Origin: a virus
IMG/VR virus record: IMGVR_UViG_3300024505_000641
Coordinates: 1-39,876 of that record
Length of the DNA stretch: 39,876 nt
Direction: 5' to 3' (one strand)
Positions 6,271 through 37,658 of the stretch are shown here, piece after piece (the first letter of the stretch is position 1; each line of letters starts with the position of its first letter). Position numbers and translations under genes: made by a program. The notes beneath the pieces are model-generated. The model did no database searches, was not told the origin of the DNA, and saw only the letters and a list, made by a program, of their open reading frames with translations.

Positions 6271-7338
6271 TTATTTTACAACACTAAACGTTATTTCATC
6301 ATCAAAGTATTGAACACTTCCATTTAAAATAACTTTAAATTCAATTTTATATACTCTATCCGATTCCCAATTTGATAAATTTAAATTAATAAAATTACTT
6401 GTTGAATCGCAACTTATTTTTGAATAATCACTAAATGGTATTATAATATCATTTGATGCAAAATCTTTTATTTGATAATATGATGTTTGCGGTAAATATT
6501 TTGTTGTGTTGTAAGAAAAAGAATTTGAAAAACTTTTTAATGGATATAACTCTCTAGCAAAAATTCTTAATTTTGGAGTTGTTCCTACTTTGTATTCTTT
6601 TTTAAGATTAGTAATTCCTATTTTAATATCATCGTTAGAAATTGCTGTTAATGTTCCTGTTGAAAAGTTTTGGTCGTTCCAACCAATTCTTATTTTAGGT
6701 TGGTATATTGTATTTGTTTCTTTAGAAAAGAACTTTAATTGTCCATAATCTTTAGTATCATTTTCAAAAGTATCTGAATATTTTATAATAATACCATCAT
6801 TTGGTCTAGAACCACTCATCCAAGATTGAAGTAAAGATTTTACATTCATTTCTATATCAGCTGTTTTATAACTAAATGATTGAGATGCTGAATTTGCTAT
6901 CCACCAAGTACCACCTGTACCATTATTTGGATTAGCATCACTACCATCTGCTAAACTATTATCTAACCAATCTAATTTAGTATCGCCTTCTCTATAATTC
7001 CAAGTTACCCCTTGTGTTGAAATATTATCAAATCTAGTACCAGTACCCATTTCCCAACTTCTTGAAACAGCATTTGCATAAATTGTATATTCTAATGGAA
7101 TTTCTTCACTCTTTGTTTCTTTTAATATTAAAGTTGCTTCAGACATAGAGATTGATGTATCAACCAAAGATGATGATAAAAATCCCACTTCAAATTTTAA
7201 AAGTGCTCTAGAAATATCTTTTATATTTCCATAGTAAACTTTACTTACTTCTAATATCTCATCCAAACCAGTATTTTGATTTGGTTGTTGAAGATAAACC
7301 GATGCATCTTTTGATGCTGTTAAAAAATAGTATGCCAT
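6271..7338 (-). CDS. DNRLRE-like beta-domain tail protein
   Basis: A 355-residue protein. The first about 215 residues follow the pattern of the DNRLRE/disaggregatase-type domain: an opening D-A-S-V-Y with Q-P-N-Q-N-T-G, a strand S-R-A-L-L-K-F-E-V, a central T-I-Y-A-N-A-V-S-R-S-W, and later D-I-E-M-N-V-K-S-L-L-Q-S-W. That fold is a jelly roll found mainly in secreted bacterial and archaeal surface proteins. The C-terminal third is another beta-rich module ending in an edge strand. The start codon overlaps the stop of the baseplate-J gene by one base (TAATG), implying translational coupling and a virion role next to the wedge. A peripheral baseplate or fibre subunit, possibly carbohydrate-contacting, is my inference. 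Confidence 0.65.
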   Translation of the reverse strand: MAYYFLTASKDASVYLQQPNQNTGLDEILEVSKVYYGNIKDISRALLKFEVGFLSSSLVDTSISMSEATLILKETKSEEIPLEYTIYANAVSRSWEMGTGTRFDNISTQGVTWNYREGDTKLDWLDNSLADGSDANPNNGTGGTWWIANSASQSFSYKTADIEMNVKSLLQSWMSGSRPNDGIIIKYSDTFENDTKDYGQLKFFSKETNTIYQPKIRIGWNDQNFSTGTLTAISNDDIKIGITNLKKEYKVGTTPKLRIFARELYPLKSFSNSFSYNTTKYLPQTSYYQIKDFASNDIIIPFSDYSKISCDSTSNFINLNLSNWESDRVYKIEFKVILNGSVQYFDDEITFSVVK

Positions 7339-9374
7339 TATCTTGCTCTTCCTTTAATATCTGAATCAGGGAATTTAACCTCAAAAACCGATGGGTCTAA
7401 TGATGGGTAAATAATTTTTGATTTAGTTGCTGCATCAATATTGTAAGAATTTACCGAATATCTTCCCCCACATTTATTTGTAACTACAACAGATGGTACT
7501 GATTGAACTCCTTCAACATTTGCTATTATTAGTTCAACTTCACTCAAATTAATTGTTTGATTAAAACTCCAATTATCTATATTAAAAAAATCTTTCAATT
7601 CTGTAATACATTTTGCTACTACTTCATTTTTATTGTAATTTTGATAGCAAATTATTTCAAAATCAATACCAATATTAATTATAAAACCATCGTTGAAATT
7701 TACACCATCAGTTAAAATTCTATATTCATTTAAATATGTTTTAAGATTTTCTTTTACACCTCTGTTTAAAGTTGTTAAATGATTATTTCTATCATATCCT
7801 AATAAATAAAGATTAATTGCAAACGGATTGTTTTTTTCATTTTCATTTGAAGTTTTTCCAATTAAAAAATTTTGTATTTCTGTTTTTACCGTTGCTGCTG
7901 TTGGCTCTTCGTTATCAGGTTTATTAACAAAACTCATTACCAAATCAGTAAATTGTTGAAGTGAATTTGGCGATGCTAAAATTGATGATGGTGAGTTATT
8001 ATCTAAAGTACCATCAGCCACTGCGTATGCTTTTGCAACTCCACCAAACTTAGATGGCATTGATAAAGCTCTAACTTGATAATCTTTAGCAGTTACTGCT
8101 CTATTTTGAGAACCAAAATTAGCTAATGCGTTTTGTCTAATTTCTTCTATTGTTTCTCCACCTCTACCACCAATAGCCGGAATTTCATTATCAACCGCTA
8201 TTGAATTTTTTGAACTTTGTAAAACTCTAATTTCTGCGCTTGTATATTGTGAAATATCTTCTTCGTATTCAATACCATCAAGTTGAGTTAATTCTCCTTG
8301 TGGTACATTTGAATCAACACCACCACCTTTAAAATATTTAATGGTTATAGTAGTATTTGATGGAGATGTACCATATGTTTTTGTTTTTAAGAAATTAGTT
8401 GGGTCAAATGATTCTTCTAATCTATTAATTGAGTTTGGCAATCCCAATCCTACGTTTTTAAGGTTTGGAATTAATAACTCATCAGATGCTGTTGGGTCTC
8501 CGGCTCCAAATTGAATTGTTGTTGTACTATCTGAATTTATTTTAGTAACAAATCTTCTTGATGTTTTAATAGTTTTTAAAATATAAGGAACTGTTGATTT
8601 AAATTGTGATAAATCTGAATCGTTTGCTTCTGTATTTGGTTCTTCAACAAAAACCATTTCTTGTGCTAAATAAGGAACTTCATACCATTTGTTACCATCA
8701 GAATCTCTTACATCATATATTTGAATAATATCAGTATCTCCTAATTTAATAGATTCAAAAGCTTTATAATTTCCAAAAGTAAAACTTTGAGTTACTTCTA
8801 TTGCTGAAATTACATCTACATATTTTTTAAATAAATAAAATGTTGGTTCTCCTGTTGTTACATCTCTTTGATATACAGAAGTTTCTCTATCGGTTTCATC
8901 GCTAAAATCTACAACATCTGTTGTTCTAAATAAAACTCCTGTTTTTGAAGATTTTACTCTCATTCCTGCTTTTATTTTTAAAGCATATTTTGTATCAGGC
9001 TTATTATCTGAGCTAGTTCCTATTGATGGAACTAATTGATAAACAGAAAGTTTTGTTACCGCTGGTGCTGTTACTTTTGGTTTATAACCTAAAAACTGAG
9101 CTAATGATAACACATTCTTTTTATCTTCTGCATATGGTAACATTGATTCTTTAAGAGTATCATCTACATAGTAAGATAAAACATCACCAATGTAAGAAGC
9201 CATCTCAATAAACATCATACCAGGAGATGTTTCATTGAAATCATTATACGTTTTAGGAAAATAATTTTTTGCAAATTCTATTAAACTATCTCTATAAGAT
9301 GCAAAATCTTTATTAAGATATTTTATATCCTTTCCTTTATTTTTAAAATTTTTATTTGTAGTTTTTAAGGCCAT
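7338..9374 (-). CDS. Baseplate J / gp6-like baseplate wedge protein
   Basis: A 678-residue protein. It starts with a basic helix and then Y-R-D-S-L-I-E-F-A-K-N-Y-F-P, followed by a block reading S-P-G-M-M-F-I-E-M-A-S-Y-I-G-D-V-L-S-Y-Y-V-D, typical of the N-terminal region of large phage baseplate J/gp6 proteins. The centre (residues 350-450) contains G-R-G-G-E-T-I-E-E-I-R and A-L-A-N-F-G-S-Q-N-R-A-V-T-A-K-D-Y, the hallmark baseplate-J region. In T4, gp6 dimers form the ring that holds the six wedges together and bind gp25. The gp25-like gene lies directly upstream with a 7-base gap, as in many contractile-tail clusters, which supports the call. It acts in the virion baseplate. Confidence 0.9.
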   Translation of the reverse strand: MALKTTNKNFKNKGKDIKYLNKDFASYRDSLIEFAKNYFPKTYNDFNETSPGMMFIEMASYIGDVLSYYVDDTLKESMLPYAEDKKNVLSLAQFLGYKPKVTAPAVTKLSVYQLVPSIGTSSDNKPDTKYALKIKAGMRVKSSKTGVLFRTTDVVDFSDETDRETSVYQRDVTTGEPTFYLFKKYVDVISAIEVTQSFTFGNYKAFESIKLGDTDIIQIYDVRDSDGNKWYEVPYLAQEMVFVEEPNTEANDSDLSQFKSTVPYILKTIKTSRRFVTKINSDSTTTIQFGAGDPTASDELLIPNLKNVGLGLPNSINRLEESFDPTNFLKTKTYGTSPSNTTITIKYFKGGGVDSNVPQGELTQLDGIEYEEDISQYTSAEIRVLQSSKNSIAVDNEIPAIGGRGGETIEEIRQNALANFGSQNRAVTAKDYQVRALSMPSKFGGVAKAYAVADGTLDNNSPSSILASPNSLQQFTDLVMSFVNKPDNEEPTAATVKTEIQNFLIGKTSNENEKNNPFAINLYLLGYDRNNHLTTLNRGVKENLKTYLNEYRILTDGVNFNDGFIINIGIDFEIICYQNYNKNEVVAKCITELKDFFNIDNWSFNQTINLSEVELIIANVEGVQSVPSVVVTNKCGGRYSVNSYNIDAATKSKIIYPSLDPSVFEVKFPDSDIKGRAR

Positions 9375-10332: not shown

Positions 10333-11316
10333 TTATACCTTGTCTGTATAAAATCCCCAATATTCCCAATGCCACATCTCATCAACACCATTACCATCTG
10401 CCAATCTATATGGATTATACCACCCATATTTAGGCGCATTGTTGGATAGCCATCTATATAAAGATGATGTTTCTCTACCTTGTTTATTAACACTAGGTAC
10501 ACCACTACCACCAACTGCTCTATACAATTCACCAAAATCTAGTGCTAATCCCCAACCATGTGGAGATTTACCAGCTTTAGCTATTGTAGAACCACTACCC
10601 AAAGAACTTTGATGCGATACACTTCTATAAGCAGATGTTATTGTCCATCCAATACCAGCAGATTTTGCAGCTGCTTTAAGTTTAAAATATTGATTTGCTG
10701 CTTCTGGATGTAGTAGATACCAACCACCCGTACCTTTGTATGTATATTCTGCCCTACCACCCTTTTCAACACCAATCATAGTATCTGGTGGTAAAGTTCC
10801 ATTTTCGTATTTACCTTTCCAATCAGGTGGTGCTGAAACTCCAATAGCTCCAACTTGAGCAAATATTTTAGCTGGTGGGCCACTTTCTATCTTTTTTAAA
10901 TTTTCAGTTGAAGGTTGTTTTTCTTCTGGTTTAAAATCGGTAGGTGGTTCACCTTGTATAGGAGTGGGTGCTGATCTTGGTGCGTAATCAAAATTTGTTG
11001 TAGCTTGTTCGGCTGGTTTGGCTTCTATTTTTTTATCACTATCTACCTTGCCATTATTTTTTTCATGTTCATCTACACCCTTTCCTTCTGATTCTGGTGA
11101 ATCATCGGATGGTGGTATTTGTGGTGATGGGGTTGATGGTGTTACTGTATAACCAGACCAAATAACCACACCTGGTCCAGGAGTTGGTACAGGTACAGTT
11201 GGATATAATGATATTGTTGAAGCTACTCCCGAAACTGTAGTTAAATGCTGAGTAGCATATTGAATAAAATCATCAATTATTAAAGAAGTATTTTTTGTAG
11301 GGTCTATTATTGACAT
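10333..11316 (-). CDS. Tail-associated M15 (VanY-type) D,D-carboxypeptidase-like peptidase
   Basis: A 327-residue protein. Residues 1-150 are a proline- and charge-rich, probably disordered leader. The C-terminal domain (about 195-325) has the full M15 zinc-peptidase signature: S-A-Y-R-S at 228-232, S-P-H-G-W-G-L-A-L-D at 251-260 with zinc ligands H253 and D260, and W-H-W-E-Y at 315-319 with the final ligand H316. Such enzymes cut D-Ala-D-Ala or peptide cross-links of peptidoglycan. There is no signal peptide and the gene sits among baseplate genes, so a virion-borne lysin that opens the wall during DNA entry is more likely than a lysis endolysin, though the latter cannot be excluded. A second M15-like gene lies 10 bases upstream. 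Confidence 0.82.
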   Translation of the reverse strand: MSIIDPTKNTSLIIDDFIQYATQHLTTVSGVASTISLYPTVPVPTPGPGVVIWSGYTVTPSTPSPQIPPSDDSPESEGKGVDEHEKNNGKVDSDKKIEAKPAEQATTNFDYAPRSAPTPIQGEPPTDFKPEEKQPSTENLKKIESGPPAKIFAQVGAIGVSAPPDWKGKYENGTLPPDTMIGVEKGGRAEYTYKGTGGWYLLHPEAANQYFKLKAAAKSAGIGWTITSAYRSVSHQSSLGSGSTIAKAGKSPHGWGLALDFGELYRAVGGSGVPSVNKQGRETSSLYRWLSNNAPKYGWYNPYRLADGNGVDEMWHWEYWGFYTDKV

Positions 11317-11326
11317 AACTTAAATA

Positions 11327-12592
11327 TTATTCATATATTGAAACGTGCATTGGGTCAAAACTTTTTAACCAAGTCATTCCCTCATTTTGAAAAACTTTAG
11401 CTACTTCCAAAAATCCCAAATCAAAATCATTAAAATCTCTAATTTTAGTTTTTCCTTCATATATCCCATCAGAACCAAATTTAGTTCCTATCGGATATAT
11501 ATCAGCATTCATATCAATTGCCAATCCCCAGCTATGATTTGATAAACGAGTTCCGTTTGTTACATTTCTTATAGCTAGCCCACCTGAACAAGTTTTTATA
11601 AATTTATTTAATCCTTTGGCTTTTATTTTTTGAAAAGCAGGTTCTGCAACTATTTTAAGTTGTTTATGAACTAAAACAGATGTTTCTCCATTTGCTAAAG
11701 GAATTGCAATTGTAGTACAATTTTTTTGAATATACTCTGGATTTCTTTCGAACCAAACTCTTACACCTTTACCACCTGTTTGCTGCAAATATTGGTTTAT
11801 TTCATCAGATGTTGTCAATTGTTTCTTTTTATACCAAGCTTCTTTTTTTGTTGATGGTATGTTTACAACAAAATTACCATATTCTCCCTTTGCAGGCCAT
11901 AATCCATTTCCAACCTTATCAAATAATTTTTTATCTCCCCTAACAGGATCTATTTTTGGTTTTGGCTTTGGGTCTTCTTCATCCTTTCCAATATCAGAAG
12001 TATCGGATGTATCTTCTTGACCTATATCTCTTTTGTATTCTAAAGTTTCTTGTTTTATTTGAGTTGGTGTTGGTAATCTATCATCATAAACAATTATTGT
12101 TGTTTTAAATAAATTTTCGTATTCTTTTTGAGATTCTTTATATTGCTCAAAATCTTTTTTAACAGTTTCTTTAGCTTCTTTATTTGGTGGTGTTGGTGCA
12201 ACTTGTTGTGGTGGAGTCCATTGTCCTACATTTGTTACTATATTTGATACAGTGCTTATGTTTGCCGTTGAACCCGGTGCAGGTATTATTGGTGGTGGTA
12301 ATTCATTTAGTGTTGCACCTGTCCAATAAGCTTGAACTGCTTTTCCCAATTCACCAACTAAATCATATGGTTGTTTTGATGATTGTCCTTTTAATAAAGC
12401 TGCATAAAAAAGTTCTTCCATTAATTCTGTATTTCCTTTTTTAACTTTTACAAAATTAACAGTATCATATCCTCTTTTTATTGCCGCATCATATTCCTTT
12501 GTCCATAATTTGGCAACACTCCTTAAATCAGGTAAAGAGTTTGGATTGTTAGAATATTTTAATATATTTGCCTTAAATAAAGCCCAAGACAT
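11327..12592 (-). CDS. Tail-associated M15-family L,D-peptidase-like protein
   Basis: A 421-residue protein. Residues 1-100 form a helical N-terminal module, 100-215 a P/T/K/D-rich linker, and 220-421 a catalytic domain of the M15C/L-Ala-D-Glu-peptidase type. The key motifs are C-S-G-G-L-A-I-R at 335-342, L-S-N-H-S-W-G-L-A-I-D-M at 350-361 (ligands H353 and D360) and D-P-M-H-V-S-I-Y at 413-420 (ligand H416). These enzymes hydrolyse stem peptides of peptidoglycan. The gene lies between the Ala/Gly-rich tail protein and the VanY-like peptidase, with gaps of 3 and 10 bases. Two different M15 domains side by side suggest complementary peptide-cutting specificities in one tail tip. Confidence 0.8.
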   Translation of the reverse strand: MSWALFKANILKYSNNPNSLPDLRSVAKLWTKEYDAAIKRGYDTVNFVKVKKGNTELMEELFYAALLKGQSSKQPYDLVGELGKAVQAYWTGATLNELPPPIIPAPGSTANISTVSNIVTNVGQWTPPQQVAPTPPNKEAKETVKKDFEQYKESQKEYENLFKTTIIVYDDRLPTPTQIKQETLEYKRDIGQEDTSDTSDIGKDEEDPKPKPKIDPVRGDKKLFDKVGNGLWPAKGEYGNFVVNIPSTKKEAWYKKKQLTTSDEINQYLQQTGGKGVRVWFERNPEYIQKNCTTIAIPLANGETSVLVHKQLKIVAEPAFQKIKAKGLNKFIKTCSGGLAIRNVTNGTRLSNHSWGLAIDMNADIYPIGTKFGSDGIYEGKTKIRDFNDFDLGFLEVAKVFQNEGMTWLKSFDPMHVSIYE

Positions 12593-14953: not shown

Positions 14954-15772
14954 TTAGGATTCAAGCTTTCTAACCTGTATTTTTATCTTTGGTTGATAAT
15001 CTTTTGGTAGTTCGTTTCTAACCCCTTCGAATGATTCTACTTTATCCGCAAAATACTCAATTTCTAATATTCTATCGGTAAGATTCATTATAGTTTGAGA
15101 AGATGTAAACATATCTTTAGCCTGTCTTCTCATATTTAATTGTGATTCTTTTGGGAAGAACTCTTTTCTCATAGCTTGTGCTATTTGTGTCCAATCCGTT
15201 ACCTTTTCAACAGTCTTTTCAGCACTTATCTTTCTCATTTTAGATGAAAGATATTTTTCGCCATGTGTATATCCAGCATCAGTAAATACATGTCCATGAT
15301 TTGTTCTAACTACCGGATGTTCAGTATTGTGAAGTTTTACATCAGGTTTATGTTTAGATGTGGCTTCAACACTAATCATATGTTTTGGAGAAGATATAAA
15401 TGTATGACCTTTTAATGCAAGAGTTGATTTACCTTTATATGTCAAACAAGCTATTAATGCTTTTTTAAGAGTTGGTTGTTTGATGATATTTCTCATTTTA
15501 TCACCATCAGGTCCAGGCTTACCAACTTTTTTAACTAACTTTTTTTCTGCTTCATCATGTCCAACCAAAAGAGCCGCATTTACAACACCGATACCATTGG
15601 CGTTCATACCCTCACTCCAATCAGTAATCATATCATGTAGATATGCTACTTCAATACCATCTATAATAGTATGAACCACTTCTAGTTTTGGTTTGTAAGC
15701 TCTATCTCTATTTTTAGCTAAGATAAACTTATCTCCAACTTCTTTGGATACAATAATACATTCGTTTATCAT
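14954..15772 (-). CDS. Ntn-hydrolase (C45/NRDE-like amidohydrolase), phage-encoded
   Basis: A 272-residue protein with the layout of cysteine N-terminal-nucleophile hydrolases related to acyl-CoA:6-APA acyltransferase and NRDE/TANGO2-like proteins. Cys5 is the candidate nucleophile, followed by A-K-N-R-D-R at 19-24, the core strand W-S-E-G-M-N-A-N-G-I-G-V at 52-63, and V-R-T-N-H-G at 155-160. If Cys5 is the nucleophile, the four preceding residues must be removed, since the family uses a free N-terminal Cys. The family cuts linear or cyclic amide bonds in varied small molecules or proproteins; the substrate here is unknown. It overlaps the previous gene by 4 bases (ATGA) and is the last member of the leader-peptide gene cluster. 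Confidence 0.62.
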   Translation of the reverse strand: MINECIIVSKEVGDKFILAKNRDRAYKPKLEVVHTIIDGIEVAYLHDMITDWSEGMNANGIGVVNAALLVGHDEAEKKLVKKVGKPGPDGDKMRNIIKQPTLKKALIACLTYKGKSTLALKGHTFISSPKHMISVEATSKHKPDVKLHNTEHPVVRTNHGHVFTDAGYTHGEKYLSSKMRKISAEKTVEKVTDWTQIAQAMRKEFFPKESQLNMRRQAKDMFTSSQTIMNLTDRILEIEYFADKVESFEGVRNELPKDYQPKIKIQVRKLES

Positions 15773-16347
15773 ATGGTTGGTAATCCTTGTTGTTGTGCAA
15801 ATTTATTTATAAACTTTTTTGTAGTACCATCATTTAATACATCAGCCCATTCCTTAACCGCATCCCTAGTTATATTATTTTTCCATTGTTTGTAACTTAT
15901 TGTTAGTCCGTTTTTTAATGGAATATCTTTACTATTTTCATTTTTGTCTGGATGTATTTCTTTGAATGTTTTTTCTAATTCGTCTTGTGCTATTTTGGAA
16001 CTTAACCATTTACTAACCAAAGATTTTTCATATTGAAATTTATCCCAAAGTAAATTTGTTTTTTTCATAGATTTATTGGTATCTTTTAATTTTTCTACTT
16101 CTACATCAAACTCTTTTATTTTTTTATCATTTTTAAGTGTAAAGTAAACATATTTATTAAAATTAGTATTGTTACCAATTCTATCTAACCATTTTATATG
16201 TGGTTCTTGTGTATAATTTTTATATTCGGATTTATTTCTGATACCTCTTATGACATTACTAATTACAAATATAGCCAGATTTACAAATAGCCATGTTACA
16301 GCTTCTTGTACAAAATTTTCTTTGATTAATGATTTTAACTTTATCAT
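15769..16347 (-). CDS. Candidate head-packaged protein with capsid-targeting-like leader and a membrane segment
   Basis: I place the start at the ATG at 16347, although the frame is open to 16434. The chosen start lies one base after the stop of the preceding gene and opens with M-I-K-L-K-S-L-I-K-E, the leader shared by five other small genes here. The resulting protein has about 192 residues: the leader, a hydrophobic segment (residues about 17-35, A-V-T-W-L-F-V-N-L-A-I-F-V-I), then a Lys-rich helical body. The I-x-E at 8-10 would be the cleavage site if a T4 gp21-like prohead protease processes it. No known domain. A membrane segment in a head-packaged protein would suit a role in DNA entry, but this is inference. 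Confidence 0.6.
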   Translation of the reverse strand: MIKLKSLIKENFVQEAVTWLFVNLAIFVISNVIRGIRNKSEYKNYTQEPHIKWLDRIGNNTNFNKYVYFTLKNDKKIKEFDVEVEKLKDTNKSMKKTNLLWDKFQYEKSLVSKWLSSKIAQDELEKTFKEIHPDKNENSKDIPLKNGLTISYKQWKNNITRDAVKEWADVLNDGTTKKFINKFAQQQGLPTI

Positions 16348-16348
16348 A

Positions 16349-16996
16349 TTATTTACAGGTTTTCCAACCACCACCTTTTGATTTGTAATTTTTTGCAGCC
16401 CATCCATTTGCATAAGCTGATGGATATACATCAAACTTACTTTTTGCTGCTGCTTTAGATGCTGACCACTTTTCTGGGTCAGTTGGACAATTCTTTTCTA
16501 AAAATAATTCAAGTGCTTCTTCTACCAATTCATTCTTTTTTCTACCCTGACAATGTGCTTTTTGAGAAAATCCCTTTGGGTTATTACAATCAATAGAACG
16601 TTTATACTTCTGACTCCATTTTTCTTCTATGTTCTCAGATGTTTTTGCTTTTTTAATAGCTTGAGATTGTTTAAAGTTATTCATAGTTTGAGTAATAACT
16701 TTAATTTGGTTTTTTTGTAATTTAACTGTATCTGAATTTTTGTCTTCTGCTTTTGCTATTTTATCTTTTATCTTTTGAATTCTTTCTTTGTATTTAGAAA
16801 TTCTTTCATTTGGTGTTACATGATGATGTTCTTTTACATCATCTTTTTTTGGTTTTTCTTTTTTAAAAGGATTAGGATTTTCTTTACTACCTCTAAAATC
16901 CCAAGCAAATTCATGCTTTTCAGGATTTACTTTTTTGACATCGTACTTCTTACCTGTTTCTTTATTTTTTACTAATATGTCAGTTAATTTTATCAT
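16349..16996 (-). CDS. Leader-bearing basic phage protein with two Cys-containing conserved blocks
   Basis: A 215-residue, Lys-rich protein beginning M-I-K-L-T-D-I-L-V-K. Unlike its siblings it has Lys rather than Glu at position 10. Residues 20-115 are charged and helical. Two conserved-looking blocks follow: I-D-C-N-N-P-K-G-F-S-Q-K-A-H-C-Q-G-R, and near the C-terminus N-C-P-T-D-P-E-K-W, then Y-P-S-A-Y-A-N-G-W-A-A-K and G-G-G-W-K. I recognise the latter pattern as recurring in small proteins of marine T4-like phages, with no assigned function. It overlaps the next upstream gene by 4 bases. High positive charge fits DNA association inside a head. Confidence 0.65.
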   Translation of the reverse strand: MIKLTDILVKNKETGKKYDVKKVNPEKHEFAWDFRGSKENPNPFKKEKPKKDDVKEHHHVTPNERISKYKERIQKIKDKIAKAEDKNSDTVKLQKNQIKVITQTMNNFKQSQAIKKAKTSENIEEKWSQKYKRSIDCNNPKGFSQKAHCQGRKKNELVEEALELFLEKNCPTDPEKWSASKAAAKSKFDVYPSAYANGWAAKNYKSKGGGWKTCK

Positions 16997-17181
16997 TTCT
17001 CTTTTTTAGGTATTCTAAAAGTTACTGCCTTTTTTCCATTTATCGTTGGCATTCCCCATTCATCTTTATCTATGGATTTAACAACAATTTTTTTGTTTTT
17101 AAATTTACCCATAAGAACAGTATCACCAACTTTCACATTAAGTTTAATTTCTTCGTTTAATATATCTTTTAACTTAATCAT
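16993..17181 (-). CDS. Small leader-bearing protein with SH3/KOW-like beta domain
   Basis: A 62-residue protein. It begins M-I-K-L-K-D-I-L-N-E, the shared leader with L-x-E at 8-10. After the leader comes a compact beta segment, V-K-V-G-D-T-V-L-M-G-K-F-K-N-K-K, then D-E-W-G-M-P-T-I-N-G-K-K and T-F-R-I-P. This resembles small phage proteins with an SH3-like or GroES-like barrel. Start and stop overlap both neighbours (1 and 4 bases). If the leader is cleaved after Glu10 the mature protein would be about 52 residues. Function unknown. Confidence 0.65.
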   Translation of the reverse strand: MIKLKDILNEEIKLNVKVGDTVLMGKFKNKKIVVKSIDKDEWGMPTINGKKAVTFRIPKKEK

Positions 17182-17495
17182 TATGCACCTGTTTTTACAA
17201 ATGTTGGTTTTTGTCCTTTTGATTTTTCTCCACCTTTTTTAGCATCTCCTGCTTTTGATTGAGCTGCTCTTTTTCTCTTTACAAATGCTGCTCTACCATC
17301 AGGTCCTAACTTAGCTGCTTTTTCTTTTGATAAACATGCTGCGTATGCTGAACCTTCTTTGCTATCCCCACACTTACCTACTTTCTCTCCCTTTGTATTA
17401 TATCTATCCCAACCCCCACCAGTAGTAGAACCAGTCTTACCTTTACCAAACCATTTACGAAGGTCTTCTGCTAATATATCTTTTAGAAGTATCAC
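17181..17495 (-). CDS. Small Gly/Lys-rich leader-bearing phage protein
   Basis: A 104-residue basic protein starting M-I-L-L-K-D-I-L-A-E (L-x-E at 8-10). The body has D-L-R-K-W-F-G-K-G-K, then G-G-G-W-D-R-Y, then V-G-K-C-G-D-S-K-E-G-S-A-Y-A-A-C-L and L-G-P-D-G-R-A-A-F-V-K-R-K-R-A-A-Q. The spaced cysteines and the F-V-x-R-K-R-A-A-Q ending are familiar from a small family widespread in marine phages and some large DNA viruses; I am not certain of its Pfam name. The Lys-rich tail suggests nucleic-acid contact. The start overlaps the preceding stop by one base. Confidence 0.65.
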   Translation of the reverse strand: MILLKDILAEDLRKWFGKGKTGSTTGGGWDRYNTKGEKVGKCGDSKEGSAYAACLSKEKAAKLGPDGRAAFVKRKRAAQSKAGDAKKGGEKSKGQKPTFVKTGA

Positions 17496-17836
17496 TATCC
17501 AATATAGCAGTTTAGTTCAAATTCATTTTGACCACCAAACATACTTCTTGTTTTAGAACCATCTAAGTTTCTTTTGAAAGTTCCCATATTATACACTTGA
17601 ATGTGTAATTGCTTTCTTTGTGGTTTTCCACCTTTTGTTAAACTAATAGAAAATCTATTTGTTTTACCTTCGGATGGTTTTTTTGGCCCCATTCCTATTT
17701 CTCTTGCAATTTCTTCATCATCCATTTGATATCCAGACTTTTTAGCCCAGTCTAATGCTGAGTTAATAGCCGATGTATATGTTTTATGATATATCGGAAA
17801 TTTTGCTTCTGTTAATAATGCTTTTAAACTTATCAT
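17495..17836 (-). CDS. Small leader-bearing phage protein, unknown function
   Basis: A 113-residue protein beginning M-I-S-L-K-A-L-L-T-E-A, the copy closest to the T4 rule (L-T-E followed by Ala). The body has a helix Y-T-S-A-I-N-S-A-L-D-W-A-K-K-S-G-Y, an acidic turn D-D-E-E, a loop G-P-K-K-P-S-E-G-K-T-N-R and a C-terminal beta hairpin (H-I-Q-V-Y-N-M-G, then F-E-L-N-C-Y-I-G). This head-to-tail pattern recurs in T4-like phages of marine bacteria as an uncharacterised protein. It is the first leader gene of the cluster and overlaps the preceding stop by one base. Confidence 0.65.
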   Translation of the reverse strand: MISLKALLTEAKFPIYHKTYTSAINSALDWAKKSGYQMDDEEIAREIGMGPKKPSEGKTNRFSISLTKGGKPQRKQLHIQVYNMGTFKRNLDGSKTRSMFGGQNEFELNCYIG

Positions 17837-18506: not shown

Positions 18507-18516
18507 TATAAATATT
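18507..18516 (-). promoter_or_regulatory. Candidate phage promoter (TATTTATA motif)
   Basis: The coding strand reads AATATTTATACACATAAAAAC, with the motif ending 20 bases before the ATG at 18486. It starts at the stop codon of the 490-residue gene. The ACATA just after the motif is shared with the copies at 10300 and 14930. Confidence 0.45.
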
Positions 18517-19987
18517 AAAATGCCAATTTTGAACCAATTTGGAAATTATGTAACATACTAAATTGTGGAGAAATTGCAATTACAGCTTTATAGGATGCTC
18601 CTAAAGCAAATCTTCTACTTATTTTATAATCATACCCAGAACCTAATATAAAGCCAGGGGAACGATTTACCATAGTATTTCCAGTCATAGTGTTTAGACT
18701 AATTGGTGAATTCATAACGAAAACCTGAGGGGATAAAGTGGTTTTCCTGTTAATTTGGTAAGGTTTAGTCCAAAACCCAACAAAAGAAGTCATCAATGAA
18801 TAATCATATCCAGTGTTTTCCACATTTCTCATAAATAAACTAATCAATCCAGCATTAAAACCATAAGTTCCGTATTTAGGATGCGGTTTGATATAAGTGT
18901 ATCCTTGCATAGCCATAAAAGTTCCTTTTAGATATGCAACAGTTGCTGAATACGAATGAATACCATTTAGTTTACCTTCATCAAAATCCATCTTAGTAAC
19001 CCCACCACTTAAAGCAAATTGGTCTAAAGTACTCCATATAAGTGCGGTAGCAGAATATGATTTATCACCCATTAAAGATGATTTAGATACACCCATAGAT
19101 AACATTAAAGAAGTTGTTTTATCAGGAGATTGGTTAGATGCTAAATCGGATGCTAATATCATTGGAGAAGATACTTGAGCTCTTTGTTTTTTCTTTTCTT
19201 CTTTTTTTTCACTTTTCTTTTCTTCTTTTTTCTCGTCTTTCTTTTCCTCTTTTGATTCTTCTTTCTTTTCTTCTTTAGATTCTTCCTTTTTTTCTTCTTT
19301 TTTAGATTCTGATTTAGATTCCTCTTTCTTTTCTTCCTGTTTTTGTTCTTGTTTTTGCTCAGATTTTTGTTCTGTCTTTTGCTCACTCTTTTGCTCAGTA
19401 GAACTACCACTACCCTTACTTTCCGAAGAACTACCCCCACTTTGTGACGAGGATGATGAAGAACTACCCCCACTTTGTGACGAGGATGAACTAGAAGGTG
19501 GTGTTGATGAAGATGCTCCACTACTTGCTGCAGAACTACTTGCCGATGAAGATGCAGCTGAACTTGCAGAACTACTTGCAGCGGAACTTGCTGATGAAGA
19601 TGCTGCTGAACTTGCTGCCGATGAAGCTGCTGAACTAGCTGCAGATGAAGCTGCGGCTGCTGCTTGTGATGCAGCTTGTGATGCTGCTTGAGAAACTGCT
19701 TGTGTTACAGTTTGTTGAACAACTTGATTAGTAGGACATGCCATAGTTGAATAAGCTGCATAAGTTGCTGCTATCCAAGCCTGTACTGCTCCACTTTGTA
19801 CTTCCAATGGAGTAAAAGTTCTAACCTGATTATAGAAAGATACCGTTGCACTTCCATTTACCATTGTAGTTGTTGCAACCTTAATTTCACCAGTACATTT
19901 ATCAACAAAAGTTTGGGTATAGGTTTGTCCGTTAGCTTTAAAAGCAAACAAAAACAATACTATAATACCAATTATCCATTTTTTCAT
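18515..19987 (-). CDS. Phage-encoded outer-membrane beta-barrel protein with long low-complexity linker
   Basis: A 490-residue protein in four parts. Residues 1-20 are a signal peptide (M-K-K-W-I-I-G-I-I-V, ending A-N-G before Gln). Residues 21-90 are a small domain with two cysteines. Residues about 92-190 are almost only A, S, Q and G (repeats of A-A-S-S), and residues 195-270 are almost only K, E, S and Q (repeats of K-E-E-K-K). Residues about 272-490 have 8-10 amphipathic strands and end in F, typical of Bacteroidota outer-membrane barrels. The linker composition may bridge the peptidoglycan or extend from the surface. It overlaps the next gene by one base (TAATG). Precise function unknown. 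Confidence 0.72.
   Translation of the reverse strand: MKKWIIGIIVLFLFAFKANGQTYTQTFVDKCTGEIKVATTTMVNGSATVSFYNQVRTFTPLEVQSGAVQAWIAATYAAYSTMACPTNQVVQQTVTQAVSQAASQAASQAAAAASSAASSAASSAASSAASSSASSAASSSASSAASSSASSSAASSGASSSTPPSSSSSSQSGGSSSSSSSQSGGSSSESKGSGSSTEQKSEQKTEQKSEQKQEQKQEEKKEESKSESKKEEKKEESKEEKKEESKEEKKDEKKEEKKSEKKEEKKKQRAQVSSPMILASDLASNQSPDKTTSLMLSMGVSKSSLMGDKSYSATALIWSTLDQFALSGGVTKMDFDEGKLNGIHSYSATVAYLKGTFMAMQGYTYIKPHPKYGTYGFNAGLISLFMRNVENTGYDYSLMTSFVGFWTKPYQINRKTTLSPQVFVMNSPISLNTMTGNTMVNRSPGFILGSGYDYKISRRFALGASYKAVIAISPQFSMLHNFQIGSKLAF
19186..19700 (-). repeat. In-frame low-complexity region (K/E codon repeats, then A/S codon repeats)
   Basis: On the plus strand this is a run of TCTTC/TTTTC-type units (about 19190-19400, encoding K and E) followed by GATGAAGCTGC/AGAACTTGC-type units (about 19500-19690, encoding A and S). 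The reading frame is kept throughout. Such stretches expand and contract by slippage, so repeat number may vary between isolates. Confidence 0.8.
19425..19489. repeat. Perfect 32-base tandem duplication, 33-base period
   Basis: The sequence beginning GAAGAACTACCCCCACTTTG at 19425-19456 recurs without change at 19458-19489. The 33-base period adds an 11-residue unit (S/Q/G-rich) to the outer-membrane protein without breaking the frame. Confidence 0.88.
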
Positions 19988-20879: not shown

Positions 20880-20904
20880 TATATAGGTTTTACCTATATA
20901 AATA
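20880..20904 (-). promoter_or_regulatory. TATTTATA motif plus perfect 9-bp inverted repeat before an envelope gene
   Basis: TATATAGGT and ACCTATATA (20880-20888 and 20892-20900) form a perfect 9-bp stem with a 3-base loop, immediately upstream of the ATG at 20877. The coding strand also carries TATTTATA at 20897-20904, overlapping the end of the phosphoesterase gene. The stem may be an operator-like or RNA element; there is no U-tract, so it is not a standard terminator. Confidence 0.4.
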
Positions 20905-21630
20905 TAATCTTCCATAAGTATCTACCAAAACTGCACTCATATTTTCTACCCAATCACCACTATTAACATATCTCTTACCATTTATAACTCTATCTTCGGG
21001 TTGATGAATATGTCCACAAATTACTCCATCACATCCTTTCTTTTCTGCCATTTTAAGAGCAGTTACCTCAAAATCATTAACATAGTTGGTAGCGGCTTTT
21101 ACGCCTGCTTTGATTTTTTGAGAGATTGATTGGTAGGGTAGATTTCTCCATTTGCGATATTTGTTATATTGGCGATTTAACCAAAGAGCAAAATCGTAAC
21201 CAACCGCTCCCAACTTTGATAACCATTTATATTTGGTAATAAAAACATCAATTACATCTCCGTGAAAAATATAGTAACATTTTGATTTCCAATTATCATA
21301 TTCAATATGTTCATAATATTGTAATCGGTAATCTTCTCTAATTTCAACTCCCCCAAAATGCGAACCAATAAATTCTTGAACAAATTCATCGTGATTTCCT
21401 CTTATCCAAATAATTTTAATTTTATTTGAAAGTTTTAATAATTTACTTATTACTTTTGTATGCTGTTTTTTCCATTTACTTCCTCTATTGATTGCCCACC
21501 CATCAATTATATCTCCATTAAGGATTAATAATTCAGTAGGATGTTTTTCAATAAATTCTATAAACTCCTCTGCTTTACTATCTTTTGTACCTAAATGTAA
21601 ATCTGATACTATAATTGCTTTATATATCAT
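20890..21630 (-). CDS. LpxH-like calcineurin-type metallophosphoesterase
   Basis: The protein has 246 residues from the ATG at 21630, which overlaps the glycosyltransferase stop by one base (TAATG); an ATG three codons earlier is possible. All metallophosphoesterase motifs are present: S-D-L-H-L-G near the N-terminus, N-G-D-I-I-D about 30 residues later, R-G-N-H-D, then F-H-G-D-V-I-D, and finally G-H-I-H-Q-P. The order and the internal W/Y-rich helical insert resemble UDP-2,3-diacylglucosamine hydrolases, which make lipid X in lipid A synthesis. Bacteroidota also have related phosphoesterases of other specificity, so the substrate is uncertain. Pairing with a glycosyltransferase suggests LPS or another glycolipid as target. 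Confidence 0.8.
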   Translation of the reverse strand: MIYKAIIVSDLHLGTKDSKAEEFIEFIEKHPTELLILNGDIIDGWAINRGSKWKKQHTKVISKLLKLSNKIKIIWIRGNHDEFVQEFIGSHFGGVEIREDYRLQYYEHIEYDNWKSKCYYIFHGDVIDVFITKYKWLSKLGAVGYDFALWLNRQYNKYRKWRNLPYQSISQKIKAGVKAATNYVNDFEVTALKMAEKKGCDGVICGHIHQPEDRVINGKRYVNSGDWVENMSAVLVDTYGRLYLYR

Positions 21631-22346
21631 TATTTCCAATAGTTATGGTCCTCATCAAAAAACTTAGGATTATTTCTATTAATATAACTTTTAATCATAA
21701 GCCATATCATATAACGAATTCCTTTTTTCTTAAATCTTCTTGCACTTGTCCAAATACCATTTATTCTTAGAATTAAAAATTTATTCTTTTTACATTTTGA
21801 AGAAATCCAATAATCTTCTGCAAATTTTTGAGTTTCAACGTATCCACCTGTTTTCCAATATTCTTTTGTATTCCATAATTGAAATCCACCAATTGCAAAT
21901 GGTGTTCCAATTGCACAACTTAGCCATTGTGTAATATCAAATAATCTAAATGCCCAATTCCAACCATATTCGGTTTGGAAAGGAACTGTTAATAAATGTT
22001 TTTCAAATGCAAAAATATTTTCATATGATTGAATTAAAACATCTCTTTCTTTCAACATTATATCAGCATCTAAAAAAAGAATATATGGAGTTGTTACCCA
22101 TTTACTACCTTCTAAACGGGCTTTTGCAGGAAATCCGCCATCAATTATTTTTATAATCAATTTATCAGAAAAATCTGCGATACATCTATATAACCAATTC
22201 AAAGATTCTATATCATCAGAACAATCTGCTATTATGACACGAACTCCTTCTACAAATTTTTGTTTATGAATTAATCCTACACAATCATAAATGTTGATGC
22301 CTTCGTTTTTACAAGGAATCACAATTGTAAGTTGTTTGTTTAACAT
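21630..22346 (-). CDS. Family 2 glycosyltransferase
   Basis: A 238-residue GT-A-fold enzyme. Residues 6-16 read L-T-I-V-I-P-C-K-N-E-G, the nucleotide-sugar-binding start of family 2 transferases; A-D-C-S-D-D (40-45) fits the second strand, F-L-D-A-D-I (91-96) is the DxD metal-binding motif, and E-D-Y-W (177-180) supplies the catalytic ED region. S-A-R-R-F-K-K-K-G follows at 201-209. A C-terminal hydrophobic patch (R-Y-M-I-W-L-M-I) may touch the membrane. The product is translationally coupled to the LpxH-like phosphoesterase. A role in modifying host surface glycans or LPS, for example to block superinfection, is inferred from the envelope-gene setting; phage DNA glycosylation is an alternative. 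Confidence 0.85.
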   Translation of the reverse strand: MLNKQLTIVIPCKNEGINIYDCVGLIHKQKFVEGVRVIIADCSDDIESLNWLYRCIADFSDKLIIKIIDGGFPAKARLEGSKWVTTPYILFLDADIMLKERDVLIQSYENIFAFEKHLLTVPFQTEYGWNWAFRLFDITQWLSCAIGTPFAIGGFQLWNTKEYWKTGGYVETQKFAEDYWISSKCKKNKFLILRINGIWTSARRFKKKGIRYMIWLMIKSYINRNNPKFFDEDHNYWK

Positions 22347-22401: not shown

Positions 22402-23604
22402 TTAATTACCTTTTGATGGAAATCTAGTCCATCCATTAGACCATATTGGTTTGGATAGCGTTTCCATTTCAGATTTTGTATAAGATACCTCTTTATTACC
22501 TTGTGATAAAGCTTTTGTTTTCATATCCGCTGCTGTAAAAACAGTTGATGTTGATTTGAAGTTTAACAATGGGTCAAATGCCTGAATCTCATTGTTTTCA
22601 AATTTAGAAACTCCATCTTTATAAGCTTGTGCAGTTTCATTACTTTCAATTGAGAAACCACCTTTTTGATAACCAATGATTTTTGAGTTAGTCATTGTAA
22701 ATTGAGTTGCACGTCTCCATCTTAAACCTAAATTATGGTTTGCTAAAGAGGTCGCATCAAATGGTCCAACTAAAATCATATTATCTAATTTAGGATGTGT
22801 GAATGGTTGTGCAGTTGTACCTGTTCCATCATTATCACACTCTACACCATTTCCAGCATCACCAGCATCTACGAATTGTGGGTCTCTCTTTGATACTGAA
22901 TAAGATACCGAACCTCTATATCCAAAATCAAAATCGTAATCATCATCCGCAGTTGCGTATGCGTATAAGTTTTTAGCGTTTACAGTTCCACCAAAGAATT
23001 CAAATGCATCATCGTTAGCGTAAACAGTTTGGATATACTCTAAAGTTGTTCCACTACCTACACCACCTAATGTTAATCCATTAATTTCGGAGTTTGGCAT
23101 TGCTGCAATTCCTGCGTATTCAATTCTAACATATTTTAGGATACCACTATTATCCAAATCGTTAGTTCCACCATAAGGTCTACCAATACCACCTTCAATT
23201 GTTGGTTCTGAAGTTCTATTAGTAGTTGCTCTACCTAATATAACCACACCACCCCAATCGCCAGGTGCTCTTTCACCAACAGCTTTACCAGATGTAAATA
23301 CAATTGGTTTTGCCGCAGTTCCTTCTGCAATTATTTGTGCACCTCTTTCAATAATTAATGCACCTTTCTCAGCGATATCGGATACGATTGTTGTACCTGG
23401 CTGAATGATAAGTTTTGCTCCATCAATTACATAAACATATCCTTTTAAGGTCCATGTTTTGTCTGATGTTAAAGTTGTTGTTGTGTTGATGTTACCACTC
23501 AAAATTGTTGATGATGGTACATTTACAGGAATATCAGTTCCACCTAATTCTTTTTTGCAACTGAATAATCCTAATACTAAAATAATTCCTAATAGCTTTT
23601 TCAT
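22402..23604 (-). CDS. Beta-helix surface lipoprotein paired with a TonB-dependent receptor
   Basis: A 400-residue protein with a lipoprotein signal: M-K-K-L-L-G, a hydrophobic core, then L-F-S-C with Cys16 as the lipidated residue, followed by K-K-E. Residues 35-330 show repeating rungs (L-I-I-Q-P-G-T-T-I, then A-L-I-I-E-R-G-A-Q-I-I-A-E-G, then P-I-V-F-T-S) and the block P-G-D-W-G-G-V-V-I-L-G, typical of right-handed parallel beta-helix lipoproteins common in Bacteroidota. The start overlaps the TonB receptor stop by 4 bases (ATGA), mirroring host receptor-lipoprotein pairs in which the lipoprotein acts as ligand-binding lid. The ligand is unknown. Host origin is likely. Confidence 0.82.
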   Translation of the reverse strand: MKKLLGIILVLGLFSCKKELGGTDIPVNVPSSTILSGNINTTTTLTSDKTWTLKGYVYVIDGAKLIIQPGTTIVSDIAEKGALIIERGAQIIAEGTAAKPIVFTSGKAVGERAPGDWGGVVILGRATTNRTSEPTIEGGIGRPYGGTNDLDNSGILKYVRIEYAGIAAMPNSEINGLTLGGVGSGTTLEYIQTVYANDDAFEFFGGTVNAKNLYAYATADDDYDFDFGYRGSVSYSVSKRDPQFVDAGDAGNGVECDNDGTGTTAQPFTHPKLDNMILVGPFDATSLANHNLGLRWRRATQFTMTNSKIIGYQKGGFSIESNETAQAYKDGVSKFENNEIQAFDPLLNFKSTSTVFTAADMKTKALSQGNKEVSYTKSEMETLSKPIWSNGWTRFPSKGN

Positions 23605-25926: not shown

Positions 25927-26142
25927 TTATGAAGAAATTCCACAAAGTGTTAAAAACTCCTTTGCATTATGTATTACATCTTCTGATTTGAACTTTCTTA
26001 ACATAGCATCTGCTATTTGTTTTCTATTGTTCATATCATCTACCATACGAAGAATTTCGGCAACACCAACAACCATATCTCTATCGTTTTCGTGCCCCTG
26101 TCCTACTTCTACTTCGTTGATTAATTTACTTAGTTTTATCAT
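25927..26142 (-). CDS. Small helical protein with capsid-targeting-like leader
   Basis: A 71-residue protein starting M-I-K-L-S-K-L-I-N-E, the same 10-residue leader as the cluster at 15.8-17.8 kb, with I-N-E at 8-10. The rest is helical and charged (V-A-E-I-L-R-M-V-D-D-M-N-N-R-K-Q-I-A). It is remote from the other leader genes, embedded in the envelope-gene region, directly before the TonB receptor. It overlaps the 40-residue basic gene by 17 bases. If cleaved after Glu10 the mature protein would have about 61 residues. Function unknown. Confidence 0.62.
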   Translation of the reverse strand: MIKLSKLINEVEVGQGHENDRDMVVGVAEILRMVDDMNNRKQIADAMLRKFKSEDVIHNAKEFLTLCGISS

Positions 26143-37418: not shown

Positions 37419-37658
37419 TTATACTAATGAGCCGGTATAGGCGTTTTCAAATATTTGTGATAATTCTAAATCTAAATCTTTTTTATATTCTATTCCAAAA
37501 GCTTTTCTTACTGATAATGATGTGTATCCCATAGCTCCTGCCATTCTCATACACATTCTTTTGTATTCCCAAACATCCATATCGTTTGGTACTTCAAATT
37601 CTATTTTGGAAGCTTCTCTATTTTCTTTTTCTTCGATGATAAATATTAATTTTGCCAT
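37419..37658 (-). CDS. Small phage protein, unknown function
   Basis: A 79-residue protein. A beta strand (A-K-L-I-F-I-I-E-E), an acidic loop and a second strand (K-I-E-F-E-V-P) are followed by a helix W-E-Y-K-R-M-C-M-R-M-A-G-A-M-G-Y, unusually rich in Met. It sits between the 191-residue gene and the coiled-coil gene with gaps of 9 and 1 bases. No family recognised. Confidence 0.58.
   Translation of the reverse strand: MAKLIFIIEEKENREASKIEFEVPNDMDVWEYKRMCMRMAGAMGYTSLSVRKAFGIEYKKDLDLELSQIFENAYTGSLV

Follow-up and report, generated by a model that had tools for sequence, protein, structure and literature searches.

To our knowledge, phage proteins that are carried into the host together with the DNA have been described for only a few model phages. 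In T4, Ip1-3 block host restriction and Alt modifies RNA polymerase. T4 IPI-IPIII and Alt bear an N-terminal capsid-targeting sequence of approximately ten residues in front of otherwise unrelated basic proteins, with variable cargo, and a protease of the gp21 family removes this sequence, cutting it off behind (L/I)-x-E (PMC3012670, PMC5694885, PMC9026906, PMC12373910); we describe here a system with the same layout, in which the cut is predicted from sequence. The T4 genetics summarized in PMC9026906 indicate that positions 4 and 7 of this sequence are involved in targeting, and that cutting requires positions 8 and 10. An identical 15-residue N-terminus was also described for two SPN3US proteins (PMC5694885).

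In the window (the whole stretch of DNA analysed, 39,876 nucleotides from IMG/VR record IMGVR_UViG_3300024505_000641), six genes have in common a leader M-I-x-L-x-x-h-h-x-E/K, where h is a hydrophobic residue, five of them clustered and one apart (Table 1). An earlier note on this DNA had claimed five clustered proteins with a common ten-residue start, (L/I)-x-E at residues 8-10 in four of them and unrelated bodies behind. All five proteins are present, on the minus strand, the motif count is correct, and a search of the window for further proteins with the same leader added gene F, previously missed. Pairwise identity among the six proteins is 51% at residues 2-10 vs 5% at residues 11-20, with a sharp drop at residue 10, in agreement with the bodies being unrelated. 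Since MI.L..[LIV][LIV].[EK] is matched by 6 of the 46 listed minus-strand window genes, with approximately 2e-4 expected per gene (P ~4e-16), the shared leader is not due to chance. Positions 4, 7 and 8 are hydrophobic in all six leaders and Glu10 is present in five; these are the positions found to be important in T4 (PMC9026906). In gene E, the leader ATG at 16347 is a better start than the TTG at 16434 of the mechanical open reading frame. A looser leader regular expression, which misses gene D because of its Lys10, also picked MAKLIFIIEE at 37658, which we took as a chance match.

Table 1. Coordinates of the leader genes and of the other features of the window discussed in the text.
Feature	Position	Strand	Length (aa)	Leader (position)	Remarks
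Gene A	17495..17836	-	113	MISLKALLTE (17807-17836)	predicted cut after E10; body family 'YHKTYTSAI'; alpha+beta model
Gene B	17181..17495	-	104	MILLKDILAE (17466-17495)	GTG start; Gly/Lys-rich body; weak phrog_23735 match, E 0.0045
Gene C	16993..17181	-	62	MIKLKDILNE (17152-17181)	
Gene D	16349..16996	-	215	MIKLTDILVK (16967-16996)	Lys at position 10; C-terminal modules 'SIDCNNPKGFSQKAHCQGRKK' and 'KNCPTDPEKW...'
Gene D, candidate internal cut site	16496..16498	-			codon of E167, between ELFLE and KNCPTD; position hand-counted
Gene E	15769..16347	-	192	MIKLKSLIKE (16318-16347)	hydrophobic segment after leader
Gene F	25927..26142	-	71	MIKLSKLINE (26113-26142)	
Adjacent gene	14954..15772	-	272		mini-propeptide MINE, then invariant Cys5; Ntn-hydrolase-like
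gp6-like baseplate wedge gene	7338..9374	-			query for relatives

A common start could also result from a cassette effect, if upstream regulatory DNA and first codons had been recombined or duplicated and the encoded residues served no function; the T-even internal-protein genes were, in fact, recognized in a polymorphic locus through the N-terminal signal that they have in common (Repoila 1994, cited in PMC12373910). We consider this explanation hardly credible for the leader genes, and largely refuted. The leader codons vary among the six window genes, differing synonymously, and the 20 bases 5' of the leaders show no likeness, as judged by eye, which argues for conservation at the protein level. 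Moreover, the protein pattern is kept over the 98 body clusters that it precedes in the sampled relatives, and copies of it occur within polyproteins, at places that are not starts.

The residue preferences of the leader were counted in loci L001-L118, relatives that were not found via the leader (pattern-selected genes in loci L199-L238 were excluded). Among the 41 starts MI.L[KRTSQN], residue 7 is hydrophobic in 40 and residue 8 in 34, and glutamate is present at position 10 in 25, at position 9 in four and at position 11 in nine; glutamate at position 10 is present in 11 of the 101 other starts. The true leader pattern occurs in at least 120 stretches and its scrambled-codon version in 25, two of which start an open reading frame of at least 40 aa. 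When applied to 100 kb of T4, the looser regular expression picked only IPII, IPIII and gp24, all of them gp21 substrates, and missed IPI and Alt. Candidate leaders of Flavobacterium phage vB_FspM_immuto_2-6A, a phage of Flavobacterium sp. LMO8, are MIKLIDLLTE, MISIYNILKE, MQFLAGIITE and MQKLAGIITE, the annotated start being 12 codons further 5' in the latter two. The group does not use the tag throughout: in G001, a relative of 168 kb that possesses the two head genes, we counted only one or two candidates for leader genes, and its head module has none.

Leader bodies also recur as parts of polyproteins, where the cut motif marks their boundary: h-x-E lies exactly at the body junction in 26 of 63 places and at two nearby offsets in 12 and 10, the remaining offsets around the junctions having 0-8%. 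The 50 contexts of the gene A family comprise 19 N-terminal leaders, 24 internal h-x-E, three variants and four others, and the gene C body family recurs within large proteins of relatives, behind an h-x-E junction. No cut is expected after the leader of gene D, given its Lys at position 10. In cyanophage S-SM2, the gene D module sits behind MKTLKQFLKE, and the stretch that follows (TPTNSVGNGGYTS) is almost the same as that after MIAE in the phage's own capsid protein. In the major capsid proteins, [LIV]-x-E before A/S/T is present at one aligned place in all 27 rows (one record being included twice), with a variable P2 residue. A global count of ES[VIL]xE linkers was not specific to leader phages (207 vs 87 shuffled; 11 vs 5 in controls). 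The bodies are reshuffled among phages: that of gene F resembles, by eye, the first module of a leader protein of loci L105 and L109, the C-terminal modules of which are those of gene D, and the cargo at one syntenic place varies strongly between the window and these two loci.

The motif is also present in the adjacent gene, whose product contains the motifs CIIV...AKNRDR, EGMNxxG and RTNH. In 24 of 26 family members h-x-E directly precedes the invariant cysteine (one with Met as h), in the other two the cysteine follows Met, and the pattern held in 25 of 26 contexts of a wider set of relatives. The AAT family (PF03417) gave a single weak match, under the cut-off (E 0.035), and none when its model was run on four records; PDB sequence searches matched no Ntn structure, and a search for cellular relatives of this gene retrieved none. 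Given the weak AAT match and the lack of a PDB match, we class the product only as Ntn-hydrolase-like. It looks as if the protease would free a catalytic cysteine by removing a very short propeptide with [LIV]-x-E at its end.

Function searches of the six window bodies (Pfam, PHROGs and, for gene A, a fold search) found none: no Pfam family scored above the cut-off, PHROGs gave one match of unknown function for gene D (E 2.7e-6) and weak matches for genes B, C and E, and the structure model of gene A (pLDDT 79.5; leader of low confidence, with residues 5-10 below 50) matched no PDB entry with an E-value of 0.001 or lower. Tagged proteins of relatives carry Nudix, RimK, zeta-toxin-like kinase, NT5C, Mom, RNase_T, M23 peptidase, lysozyme-like and OmpA domains and a probable ADP-ribosyltransferase fold. 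The model of the ADP-ribosyltransferase-like protein, poor overall (mean pLDDT 50), matches Tpt1 (E 2.6e-4) and weakly DarT (E 0.09 and above), matches that depend on its better-modelled N-terminal part. M23 peptidase, lysozyme-like, Mom and OmpA would be odd head cargo and count against a head location. Leader bodies are basic, with a median pI of 9.45 vs 6.73 (n 98 vs 1189), a character that is not universal, since 66% of them vs 42% of the comparison proteins have a pI above 8.5. No match to the cargo of locus L155 was found in annotated phage records.

The window, a 40-kb fragment, gave no match to a gp21-type (S77) protease, and neither did two contigs whose gene A is identical to that of the window, both 31-kb fragments. 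Nevertheless, in two relatives (G002 and G003), the S77 protease, the T4-type capsid gene and leader genes are together in one head module, with the leader genes between terminase, portal, protease, scaffold and capsid genes. Of the seven relatives found by the baseplate gene, three have the S77 protease, as do 11 of 18 leader-bearing records of at least 47 kb, among the 80 matches listed, and 10 of 14 gene A records chosen from 80, vs none of 9 control records. Fisher's test gave P=0.004 for 10 of 17 leader records (L132 left out) vs 0 of 9 controls, the latter being mostly shorter (41-152 kb vs 48-369 kb). Gp23 was found in 9 of the 18 leader-bearing records, in 9 of 12 gene A records tested and in G001-G003, and in none of the 9 controls; all 21 tested records of relatives with Gp23 also have S77. 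S77 is missing from 7 of the 18 leader records and 4 of the 14 gene A records, including records of 126, 188 and 207 kb from which Gp23 is also missing and which may therefore be fragments.

The tagged Nudix, NT5C, Mom and RNase_T domains would also suit the infected cell, and the leader could dock to another phage or host complex (replisome clamp, RNA polymerase or membrane), E10 being then part of a docking helix with no cut. We regard this as quite unlikely, because it leaves unexplained the h-x-E at internal junctions and before the invariant cysteine of the adjacent gene, the match in the capsid proteins and the linkage to S77 and Gp23. The head packaging predicted in the earlier note is, as a prediction, strongly supported by genome context, the protease of relatives and several independent cut-site tests.

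We thus favour, with high confidence, a leader that acts as a capsid-targeting sequence as in T4, its cargo being targeted to the prohead and trimmed by the protease. Late in infection, the leader would dock each protein, as a short amphipathic helix, on the prohead scaffold, so that unrelated tagged proteins would become trapped within the head. The gp21-type protease, active in the prohead, would cut behind [L/I/V]-x-E, which in the leader ends at residue 10, would split polyprotein modules at the same motif and would remove a propeptide of approximately 3-11 residues from the adjacent gene's product, whose N-terminal cysteine would be bared only in the head. The freed, mostly basic bodies would lie among the packaged DNA and be delivered with it to the next host. 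Injection of the window genes' products as an early-takeover or anti-defence set, as suggested in the earlier note, is plausible in view of the Nudix, RimK, zeta-toxin-like kinase and probable ADP-ribosyltransferase-fold members among the tagged proteins of relatives.

Instead, the role of these proteins in the prohead could be that of T4 gp67/gp68, in assembly or in the core; they would then be degraded or kept as filler and would not act as injected effectors. This possibility, which we find doubtful but worth keeping in mind, fits the window bodies, without recognisable effector domain, and the leader proteins that closely adjoin protease and portal genes; the variation of cargo at one syntenic place and the enzyme domains elsewhere look, on the contrary, like effectors. 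We lean, with some reserve, towards a broader proposal, namely that T4-like Bacteroidota or aquatic phages use one address code (leader plus [LIV]-x-E) to load a large and open-ended cargo set, approximately 100 families in our sample alone, enzymes included, singly or as polyproteins diced in the prohead, at least one cargo being a protease-activated zymogen with an N-terminal cysteine.

The assignment to a Bacteroidota phage, also made in the earlier note, is supported through relatives only, namely Flavobacterium phage immuto and the bS21 head-module layout (PMC9723584); another relative is recorded from Microcystis. A bS21-like gene adjoins a leader gene in locus L094, Mel-JY01 has an annotated bS21, and the bS21-encoding Bacteroidetes phages are the probable lineage of the window's phage. 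We found no published virion proteomics of the cultured relatives immuto and Mel-JY01 in the portions of the literature available to us.

Should this leader prove to be an address tag of general use, metagenomes would yield many candidates for injected proteins, open to testing, and the payload that uncultured phages inject could be deduced from sequence. The capsid protease would, in addition, gain two roles, dicing cargo at the polyprotein junctions and, through the cysteine-freeing propeptide, activating an enzyme only in the head.

The head module of bS21-encoding Bacteroidetes phages likewise comprises terminase, portal, protease, capsid gene and bS21; in the available parts of PMC9723584 the genes beside it are left as hypothetical proteins and the leader is not mentioned. 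Polyvalent proteins are also multidomain, with exchangeable modules and in part predicted to be packaged in the capsid, but many have their own metallopeptidase domain, and a short common leader is not described in the available parts of that work (PMC5512222). The ejection proteins of phiKZ and SPN3US are head-packaged and trimmed by a gp21-related protease (PMC5694885), as we infer for the leader proteins; the motifs named for them are A-x-E and S-x-E and their protease is S80, whereas the leader system has [LIV]-x-E and S77. In relation to T4, the leader MIxLxxhhxE differs from MKTYQEFIAE and is nearer to the gp24 start MAKINELLRE, and the probable ADP-ribosyltransferase-fold member in relatives has a counterpart in Alt, an ADP-ribosyltransferase. 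The system is found in T4-like lineages other than that of T4, and has far more body types (98 clusters), sites at polyprotein junctions and an Ntn-like neighbour.

The window (a 39,876-base virus record) is, judged from its gene content, a fragment. The earlier note had proposed that five adjacent genes (A–E) carry a common ten-residue leader before unrelated bodies, and this was borne out, with a mean pairwise identity among six such proteins of 51% in residues 2–10 and 5% in residues 11–20; the sixth is encoded by gene F. The pattern MI.L..[LIV][LIV].[EK] is matched by six of the 46 listed minus-strand window genes (P ~ 4e-16). The codons of the six leaders vary and the 20 bases upstream look unrelated by eye, which argues that selection acts on the peptide. 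Gene E most likely starts at 16347; gene D has no Glu10, and its alignment with loci L153 and L129 suggests loss of the part that carries the cut site. The start MAKLIFIIEE looks like a beta strand and was taken as a chance match.

Window features, with positions and strand
Feature	Position	Strand	Observation
Genes A–E	15769-17836	minus	Starts MISLKALLTE, MILLKDILAE, MIKLKDILNE, MIKLTDILVK, MIKLKSLIKE
Gene F	25927-26142	minus	Start MIKLSKLINE
Neighbour gene, beside gene E	14954-15772		MINE/CIIVSKEV...AKNRDR; 4-residue propeptide ending I-N-E right before invariant Cys
TonB-dependent receptor	23601-25853		Plug and OMP_b-brl_3 matches
Lipoprotein-like 400-aa protein	22402-23604		Adjoins the receptor
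Family 2 glycosyltransferase, Calcineurin-like phosphoesterase	20890-22346		Side by side
VanY and M15_4 proteins	10333-12592		Adjacent; different D-Ala-D-Ala carboxypeptidase domains; beside baseplate genes
Low-complexity protein	18515-19987		Long Ala/Ser and Lys/Glu runs; similar gene near cluster in L105, L109
MAKLIFIIEE start	37419-37658		Fits looser leader regex

In T4, the first ten residues of IPIII are enough for packaging, and targeting depends on residues 4 and 7 and processing on residues 8 and 10 (PMC9026906). A loose leader regex run over 100 kb of T4 matched IPII, IPIII and gp24 only, missing IPI and Alt. Relatives were sought with the gp6-like baseplate gene of the window. Among 34 phage records this gave Flavobacterium phage immuto and Microcystis phage Mel-JY01, and in viral contigs at least 600 stretches, 80 of which were kept. 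Among relatives not selected by leader, 41 starts of type MI.L[KRTSQN] have a hydrophobic residue 7 in 40 and a hydrophobic residue 8 in 34, with Glu at position 10 in 25, 9 in 4 and 11 in 9; Glu10 is present in 11 of the 101 other starts. After removal of the pattern genes from pattern-found loci, Glu10 occurred in 22/51 vs 14/94, and Glu9 in 14/51.

Two relatives (loci L105 and L109) retain the cluster, flanked by the same genes, and carry partly different cargo at the same places (leader proteins of 403, 104, 160, 182 and 77 aa, and of 85, 104, 160 and 365 aa, respectively). By eye, the 160-aa protein combines a first module that resembles the gene F body with the C-terminal modules of gene D, which suggests that the leader stays constant while the modules behind it are reshuffled.

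Peptidase S77 (gp21 family) was present in three of seven relatives. Records G002 and G003 have leader genes both in the stretch from terminase to portal and among the protease, scaffold and capsid genes; the head module of G001 holds none. In the G002 head module a bS21-like gene (L094 3954-4217) has a leader gene on one side and the scaffold gene on the other. A degenerate leader pattern search returned at least 120 stretches (151 matches in 120 loci). Of 104 matches in the first 80 loci, 97 were no more than 25 codons from where their open frame begins. Among the 80 records listed, S77 was found in 11 of the 18 leader records of at least 47 kb, and the T4-type capsid protein Gp23 in nine, all with S77; scrambled-pattern control records, shorter on the whole than leader records, had neither (0/9 each). 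Of 14 records with gene A relatives, chosen from 80, ten have S77, nine of them with Gp23; the other four are two 31-kb fragments and two records of 188 and 207 kb, the latter pair lacking Gp23 as well. All 21 Gp23-bearing records, including G001-G003, carry S77. The Gp23 match of the 369-kb record G010 (C1:91495-93003) is in two pieces, one reading through TAA.

Leader-borne bodies of one phage occur within longer proteins of another, and the end of h-x-E (h, hydrophobic) coincides with the junction in 26 of 63 such cases; the counts at two nearby offsets are 12 and 10, and the remaining offsets have 0-8%. Two proteins, L094 (747 aa) and L099 (371 aa), have internal leader-like copies. The gene A family, in 50 distinct contexts, is preceded by a leader in 19, by internal h-x-E (inside a seven-residue window) in 24, by N-terminal variants in three and otherwise in four. 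Capsid proteins have [LIV]-x-E before A/S/T at one aligned place in 27 of 27 rows (one record twice), the middle residue being variable. In Cyanophage S-SM2, the gene D module lies behind MKTLKQFLKE, after which comes a stretch almost identical to the one that MIAE precedes in the phage's Gp23. A family of P-loop kinases starts MIKLKDILNE/GVYDPG in the leader-bearing group, MIPFILKE/GLYDPG in HTVC008M and MKTFAELQE/GVYDPN in Melnitz, the same body behind a lineage-specific leader. Leader proteins would be packaged and cleaved, and may be injected.

The neighbour-gene family keeps [LIV]-x-E/C in an otherwise variable propeptide: h-x-E abuts Cys in 24 of 26 distinct members (once with Met as h), and Met does in two. 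A wider scan (80 loci, leaving out nine rows: six misread by the regex that have MINE/C, one truncated, two without match) gave 26 distinct propeptide contexts, 25 with h-x-E/C and lengths of 3 to 11; the 26th (L380) also ends LVE when read from further upstream. The sole profile support is one member's weak match to AAT; Cys, NRD, EGxNxxG and RTNH are invariant or almost so, and we take them to be marks of N-terminal-nucleophile hydrolases. The putative catalytic Cys may thus be bared by the capsid protease.

The 188 leader proteins fell into 98 body clusters (BLAST E 1e-4; clusters may be remotely akin), 72 being singletons, and domain matches among 60 scanned include Nudix (2), RimK, Mom, M23, RNase_T, HD, zeta toxin and NT5C. 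The bodies are basic (median pI 9.45 vs 6.73). For L162, a low-confidence structure model gives a match to Tpt1 and a weak one to DarT, two proteins of the ADP-ribosyltransferase fold. T4 Alt is an ADP-ribosyltransferase (PMC9026906). In Mel-JY01 (L117 10276-12718), three nearby leader proteins, one of only 60 aa, have bodies beginning alike (ART-type) and appear to be a small amplified family.

Among other window genes, a phage-borne TonB-dependent receptor is, to our knowledge, unusual, and the VanY and M15_4 proteins are perhaps two tail peptidases.

In the literature searched (most subscription journals lying outside its scope), the strings MIKLKD and MIKLKN were absent, MIKLKE occurred only in an unrelated clinical paper, and among the matches listed a leader of this type is described only for T4-like coliphages and phiKZ-like phages. 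The principle is that of T4 (PMC3012670, PMC9026906, PMC5694885, PMC12373910).
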